DNA of 50,010 nucleotides from Oerskovia douganii (GTDB taxonomy: Bacteria > Actinomycetota > Actinomycetes > Actinomycetales > Cellulomonadaceae): contig NZ_JACSPN010000028.1 of the NCBI RefSeq assembly GCF_015142735.1, positions 1 to 50,010 of the forward strand, given 5' to 3'. This document shows positions 15,617-15,732 of this stretch, one piece after another. The notes beneath the pieces were generated by a model. It saw only the letters and a program-made list of their open reading frames with translations, searched no databases and had not been told where the DNA came from. The position numbers and the translations under genes were made by a program. Numbering within the stretch: the stretch's first letter is position 1; the number at the start of each line of letters is the position of its first letter.

Positions 15617-15710
15617 TCCTTCGCGATCTCTTCGTCGGTGCTGTTCAGCCGGCACACCAACCACCGCGACGAGGATGCGGCCTAGAGGGCCTCGTCGCGG
15701 CAACGAAGGA
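15617..15710 (-). promoter_or_regulatory. leuA translational attenuator (leader codons pair with leuA SD)
   Basis: In the minus-strand RNA, TCCTTCG within the leader's Leu/Arg codons (15710-15704) is exactly complementary to CGAAGGA (15623-15617), the ribosome-binding site of leuA; one more G-U pair is possible. A perfect 11-bp hairpin, CCGCGACGAGG with CCTCGTCGCGG (15700-15690 with 15674-15664), covers the end of the leader. A ribosome stalled at Leu codons would free the leuA SD; rapid translation would allow it to be masked. The mechanism is inferred. Attenuation of leuA by leader peptides is established in Streptomyces and relatives. Confidence 0.7.
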
Positions 15711-15732
15711 GGAGCAGCTGTGTCACGTGCAC
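15682..15732 (-). CDS. leuL: leucine leader peptide of leuA
   Basis: GTG to TAG encodes a 16-residue peptide, VHVTQLLLLRCRDEAL, with four consecutive Leu codons (CTG CTC CTC CTT) and a fifth Leu at the end. It lies about 70 nt before leuA. No SD precedes it, and the presumed -10 at 15744-15739 would start transcription at about the G of the GTG, so it is probably translated from a leaderless mRNA. The Leu run identifies it as a leucine sensor. Confidence 0.8.
   Translation of the reverse strand: MHVTQLLLLRCRDEAL

Follow-up and report, generated by a model that had tools for sequence, protein, structure and literature searches.

The LEU element upstream of leuA in Oerskovia douganii as a probable leaderless, leucine-sensing translational attenuator

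The window analyzed here, the whole 50,010-nt stretch of Oerskovia douganii DNA (NZ_JACSPN010000028.1), carries upstream of leuA what its sequence identifies as a clear copy of the known LEU element. This copy is ordinary in itself, and its interest lies in the evidence on mechanism and in a wider list of targets rather than in the window locus. We consider it probable that the element controls leuA by translational attenuation, sensing leucine through a leaderless leader. When Leu-tRNA is ample, ribosomes would cross a run of Leu codons in the leader rapidly, the run would pair with the leuA Shine-Dalgarno (SD) sequence and little leuA translation would follow; when Leu-tRNA is scarce, a ribosome would stall on the run and mask it, so that the SD sequence would be released. 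A hairpin with a pseudoknot presumably keeps the Leu run beside the SD sequence. The features of the window copy are as follows.

15739–15744, minus strand: leader promoter –10 box, TACAGT, ending 6 nt before the GTG of the leader (from sequence)
15682–15732, minus strand: leader ORF, VHVTQLLLLRCRDEAL and stop codon (from sequence; leaderless start predicted)
15706–15717, minus strand: four-codon Leu run CTG CTC CTC CTT (from sequence)
15704–15710, minus strand: TCCTTCG, the arm that pairs with the SD sequence of leuA (from sequence; present in the minimum-energy fold)
15690–15700, minus strand: 5΄ arm of hairpin P1, CCGCGACGAGG (conservation in 98 aligned rows)
15678–15682, minus strand: pseudoknot 5΄ arm GGCCG in the P1 loop, sharing the final base of the stop codon (covariation in the family)
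15664–15674, minus strand: 3΄ arm of hairpin P1, CCTCGTCGCGG (conservation in 98 aligned rows)
15647–15651, minus strand: pseudoknot 3΄ arm CGGCT, within GTGTGCCGGC (well conserved in the family)
15617–15623, minus strand: leuA SD sequence CGAAGGA, partner of the Leu run (from sequence and the minimum-energy fold)
13837–15612, minus strand: leuA, encoding a 2-isopropylmalate synthase of 591 aa when started at the second ATG (TIGR00970)

The LEU element was reported in 2005 by Seliverstov et al. upstream of leuA in most Actinobacteria (PMC1262725), and was described as a leader with a Leu run, a stem between this run and the SD sequence, a pseudoknot and an alternative hairpin. The window copy has the same Leu-run leader, the same base stem of Leu codons and SD sequence, the pseudoknot and the same gene, and no structural difference was found from the element as set out in the available part of that paper. 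Leaders of leuA have also been reported in corynebacteria (PMC4046766, PMC3890552, PMC5784534), and in a mycobacterium leuA was reported to be preceded by a uORF (PMC4974804); in the available part of PMC4633059, no mention of leuA was found. The initial annotation had singled out the combination of a leaderless start with direct masking of the SD sequence, which is not new, as the Leu-codon/SD stem is in PMC1262725 and a leaderless leader in PMC8079986. The latter concerns Streptomyces lividans leuL1, a Leu-rich leader of 15 residues before leuA that was determined to be leaderless by 5΄-end RNA-seq; in the window the start is only predicted, and the peptide differs.

The window leader (minus strand 15732–15682; GTG CAC GTG ACA CAG CTG CTC CTC CTT CGT TGC CGC GAC GAG GCC CTC TAG) comprises 16 residues, from the GTG at 15732 to the TAG stop at 15684–15682. 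Its four consecutive Leu codons, the exact complementarity of TCCTTCG to the leuA SD sequence and the perfect 11-bp hairpin at the leader end were all as the initial annotation had described them. The resulting base stem of 7 pairs lies directly upstream of a leuA whose product exceeds the TIGR00970 cut-off (851 bits, cut-off 697; match spanning 13849–15549) and shares 95% identity with its counterpart in Oerskovia merdavium. The most likely leuA start is the second ATG (15612–15610); the first (15615–15613) is one base away from the SD sequence. In addition, CGACGAAG (15637–15630), upstream of the SD sequence, can pair with CTTCGTTG of the leader (15708–15701) with one G-U pair, and is a possible alternative partner of the Leu run. 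A search with 4227 Rfam models yielded no match at the gathering threshold over the window and none at E values up to 1 over 15560–15800.

We examined how widely the element is conserved. LeuA exceeded the TIGR00970 cut-off in 58 of the 61 genomes searched in the family of the window, and the regions upstream of the main leuA of these 58 genomes, together with second and partial copies, constituted a family set of 66 regions, among which a Leu-run leader was found in 64 by one pattern and in 65 by another. A covariance model (R1) built on 50 sequences of this set matched all 66 regions and, immediately before leuA, 79 of 80 named LeuA loci (the sole miss being L188); within the order it matched 100 of 119 genomes, a count that includes the own genome and the family. 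Although built on the family of the window, this model also found leaders identical to S. lividans LeuL1 (MRFGLLLLSCRGEGL) in five Streptomyces-like loci (L081, L083, L084, L085 and L089). In a draw from the phylum, R1 matched 19 of 198 genomes, four of them outside the class (L069, L072, L082 and L086). L069 and L072, of family f14, have LEU elements before leuA, and the pairing in L069 is CTCCTGC/GCAGGAG. The matches in L082 and L086 look like chance, as do those in L158, L315 and L316 and the second match in L223, and these were rejected as LEU elements. A broader model (R2) was built from alignment A5 of 98 rows, in which one wrong row (L220, minus strand, E 0.0088) was retained; at the level of the class it matched at least 151 of 158 genomes, with one copy in the own genome among the matches listed.

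In total, 226 element rows were reduced to 217 with unique context, and a lenient rule identified a leader ORF in 215 of these; the other two are cut by the contig end (L189) or a spurious match (L223b). At L139 and L234, this rule gives leaders too long to be plausible. A leuA start was called in 204 elements by the best SD-like match, which is wrong in some loci (e.g. L027 and L067), and the codon and pairing counts were restricted to the 196 elements in which this start lay within the context at 88–220 nt and the run had at least two Leu codons.

Given its composition, the whole leader does not fold with unusual stability (z = –0.88; of 200 shuffled sequences, 34 were equally or more stable). 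We accordingly discarded single-sequence fold stability as evidence, and the case rests on conservation. In the window, the 11 pairs of P1 enclose a 15-nt loop that contains the leader stop codon. Over 98 aligned rows, one of them wrong, 96.9% of the P1 cells were paired, both-side changes occurred in 6 of the 11 pairs, and double-change cells numbered 78, compared with 15.0 in shuffled alignments, the alignment having been fitted to the same structure. The pseudoknot, which is conserved and was missing from the initial description of the locus, showed 93.7% paired cells and both-side changes in 3 of 6 pairs among 50 family sequences. The window copy, with four Watson-Crick pairs and one G-U pair, is among the weaker ones. 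When P1 and the pseudoknot were evaluated jointly in a MAFFT alignment of the 50 family sequences, 97.2% of the cells were paired and 46 double-change cells were counted, compared with 12.1 in shuffled alignments, counts that are inflated by the kinship of the sequences; the family count of further pair types was no better than in shuffled alignments (15 versus 14.1). In 215 elements, the longest complementarity of the P1 loop to the next 45 nt averaged 5.59 pairs, compared with 4.81 for swapped and 4.62 for shuffled partners, and the median element was equalled by 37% of swaps. The fold of the window leader further contains a predicted second hairpin.

We then asked how far the pairing between the Leu run and the SD sequence exceeds chance. 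In the window, seven contiguous pairs were reached by 0.56% of synonymous recodings drawn from the Leu codon usage of downstream leuA genes, and by 0.8% of random 21-mers of 72% GC. In the 196 elements, the longest Watson-Crick run averaged 6.15 pairs, compared with 4.45 for synonymous recodings by leuA usage (165 of the 196 lay above their own synonymous mean) and 5.38 for recodings by the codon frequencies of the leaders themselves (exceeded by 152). With swapped partners the mean was 5.36 and the median element was equalled by 47% of swaps; the duplex energy of the own partner was better than the swapped mean in 116 of 196 elements. The pairing is above chance, but a pyrimidine run facing a purine SD sequence accounts for much of it. 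The initial annotation had proposed comparing this pairing across related genomes; the exact TCCTTCG/CGAAGGA pair was present in the four same-genus copies compared (L013, L017, L019 and L020); of the 60 family copies, however, only 26 had it, the others showing a shifted register or shorter pairing. Flanking dinucleotides were complementary in 57 of 90 cases, compared with 44.5 ± 2.2 after shuffling; this test was not relied on as proof of pairing because 53 of the 57 were of the CG/CG class, largely from related genomes, and outside this class only 4 of 37 were complementary. Covariation of the Leu run and the SD sequence beyond the core is weak.

The codons of the Leu run are biased. CTT accounted for 306 of 670 run codons (45.7%), whereas the downstream leuA genes use it for 96 of 6401 Leu codons (1.5%); at least one CTT was present in 193 of 196 leaders, and CTT was the last Leu codon in 172. 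Rare codons, defined by a share below 5% in leuA, made up 310 of 670 codons in the run (46.3%), 125 of 944 before it (13.2%) and 34 of 1281 after it (2.7%), compared with 3.1% in leuA, and CTT represented 10 of 101 leader Leu codons outside the run. CTCCTT, which we take to match the anti-SD core of the 16S rRNA, occurred in 156 of 196 runs. The possibility that CTT is due to pairing with the SD sequence alone was rejected: in the 46 of 196 elements whose 20-nt SD window lacks AAG, CTT was about as frequent (66 of 153 run codons) as in those with AAG (240 of 517), a comparison that G-U pairing could soften. This suggests that SD pairing is not the only reason for the retention of CTT, which may be the first codon to starve or may be needed for some RNA contact.

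The spacing of the promoter was compared across elements. In the window, TACAGT (15744–15739) was recognized by eye and by TANNNT spacing rather than by a promoter scan, and a simple scan of 15400–15950 found no sigma-70 consensus promoter. The leaderless-type spacing pointed out in the initial annotation is real, and the transcription start at the leader GTG (15732) is predicted from it. In 198 of the 215 leaders, a –10 box preceded the chosen start by 6 or 7 nt (140 and 58, respectively), the choice of start having favored a –10 box. Without this preference, considering all in-frame ATG and GTG codons, TANNNT was found at 6 nt in 141 and at 7 nt in 58 of the 215 unique elements, where one element may count at both distances; all remaining distances between 0 and 49 nt gave counts of 0–20 each. 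In the family of the window, the box lay 4–8 nt from the leader start in 59 of 60 copies, and in the five Streptomyces-like copies TANNNT lay 9–10 nt from it. In S. lividans, the mean distance from the –10 box to the transcription start is 6.3 nt, and leuL1, whose peptide is identical to that of the five Streptomyces-like copies, was reported as leaderless, a distance of 0–3 nt being so counted (PMC8079986). The spacing is strong but indirect evidence that the leaders generally begin at a leaderless start.

Published LEU element sites, as given in the accessible text of PMC1262725, comprise those upstream of leuA and one within a transposase gene; we found copies also at leuB, leuC and leuA paralogs. 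A leuA- or leuB-type gene was in range at 63 of the 70 loci examined. Titles and the beginnings of abstracts outside subscription papers yielded no report of LEU elements before leuB or leuC beyond the leuA paper of 2005, which is weak evidence of absence. Because second copies were fetched for being second copies, no frequency is claimed for leuB or leuC targets. Their identities derive from one LeuC-type protein (L122) and two LeuB-type proteins (L080 and L119) recognized by NCBIfam, which fall below the whole-protein cut-offs because they are partial, and from tblastn to these for the rest.

LEU-type copies directly upstream of leuC were found at seven loci (L120, L122, L126, L129, L130, L132 and L137), and the family concerned appears to be Microbacteriaceae, judging from leader peptides shared with named Microbacterium loci. 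In the six leuC leaders listed, the –10 box was 6–7 nt from the start. L122 (1–1139) presents an LEU-type element with leaderless-type spacing adjoining leuC. Copies before LeuA paralogs with about 51–56% identity to the window LeuA were found at 11 loci (L079, L087, L124, L295, L304, L305, L311, L319, L327, L331 and L333), six genomes of the family of the window have a second leuA (L060–L065), each with its own diverged LEU element, and L286 has an element before a shorter LeuA-like protein (24% identity). In the Mycobacterium-like family f6, the element precedes four short free-standing ORFs (L307, L309, L313 and L318; match at about 1501); the proteins of L318 and L307 matched Pfam LeuA_dimer, the allosteric domain of LeuA, above the cut-off, and those of L309 and L313 did not match.

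Copies ahead of leuB were found at 15 loci (L080, L119, L135, L281, L306, L310, L312, L314, L317, L322, L323, L325, L329, L336 and L338), where a few hundred bases separate the element from the gene. In 10 of the 12 gaps scanned, a short ORF of 27–46 codons preceded by an SD sequence was present, resembling or co-located with the ORFs of other loci, and the motif DRRDNGG occurred near its end in six of the 12 (L322, L323, L325, L329, L336 and L338); the direct target there may therefore be this micro-ORF. For example, L323 (1–1340) contains a Val/Ile/Leu leader with GTA, ATT and CTT, then the DRRDNGG micro-ORF, and then leuB. The run of these 15 leaders consists of Val, Ile and Leu codons with some Arg or Phe codons. 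It again contains rare codons: GTA in 13 of 15 leaders (1.1% of Val codons in leuA), ATT in 8 of 16 Ile codons (3.9% in leuA) and CTT in 10 of 20 Leu codons (1.5% in leuA). That the nucleotides differ while the residues remain mostly branched-chain speaks for reading by a ribosome. The –10 box was 9–10 nt from the start in 12 of the 15, and these leaders are thus possibly not strictly leaderless.

These data bear on what the element responds to. Its discoverers favored a binding protein, orthologs of ML1624 (PMC1262725), in which case the element would be the binding site of a regulatory protein and the leader peptide secondary. The phylogenetic pattern matches, and leader-codon mutations of S. 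coelicolor leuA (Craster 1999), which had some effect that did not conform to classical attenuation, are cited there as evidence against attenuation and as lacking influence on regulation; P1 and the GTGTGCCGGC segment are also strongly conserved in the family. However, a protein site would need neither the leader ORF, the start spacing and the rare codons, all of which are kept, nor a leuB run that changes its nucleotides while mostly retaining branched-chain residues, and we regard this explanation as unlikely. The rare codons, the kept leader and the switch to Val/Ile/Leu in leuB leaders instead favor sensing by a stalled ribosome, as the initial annotation had suggested in proposing translational attenuation, but the weak covariation of the Leu run with the SD sequence speaks against it.

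Classical leu, trp and ilv attenuators likewise sense amino acids through the corresponding codons of a leader peptide, but the window element differs from them in that no terminator was found and in that its output would be access to the SD sequence rather than transcription. An improbable alternative is transcription attenuation, in which ribosomes, on stalling or being released, would change Rho-dependent or intrinsic termination upstream of leuA. Classical leader peptide attenuators are indeed predicted or known in other actinobacterial operons (PMC1262725); however, a simple scan of 15400–15950 found no terminator-like site, which argues against the intrinsic form, and S. lividans leuL1 was reported to lack a typical terminator (PMC8079986).

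The effect of a ribosome on the SD sequence was modeled without the pseudoknot. In 196 leaders, the mean SD accessibility was 0.35 in the free RNA and 0.51, 0.43 and 0.40 with a ribosome stalled at the first Leu codon, the last Leu codon and the stop codon, respectively; the stall at the last Leu codon raised accessibility in 95 leaders and lowered it in 42. In the window, accessibility changed from 0.15 to 0.54 with a stall at the first Leu codon but was 0.14 with one at the last, a point against the proposed attenuation. When the A-site was moved along 98 of the 196 leaders, the gain over the free RNA (0.34) was largest at the first Leu codon (+0.17), and a footprint at every scanned leader position raised the mean at least slightly. 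The last result is as expected if leaderless ribosomes merely open the leuA SD sequence in passing, by translational coupling with no amino-acid sensing, a very unlikely explanation that accounts for neither the concentration of rare codons in the run nor the Val/Ile/Leu switch before leuB.

Beyond leucine-sensing translational attenuation of leuA, a wider reading is conceivable, which we hold only tentatively: a class-wide leucine regulon of actinomycetes comprising leuA, its paralogs, leuC, the leuB micro-ORF and free genes for the LeuA allosteric domain, in which leaderless or nearly leaderless ribosomes would sense branched-chain aminoacyl-tRNA through the rare codons CTT, GTA and ATT and, at leuA, would free the SD sequence from masking by the sensor codons themselves. 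If true, it would settle the mechanism of the LEU element, which was left open in 2005, and the rare codons, the leaderless spacing and the copies at leuC and leuB offer sharp and inexpensive tests. If right, this would explain leucine control across much of the actinomycetes, including industrial producers of amino acids and antibiotics.
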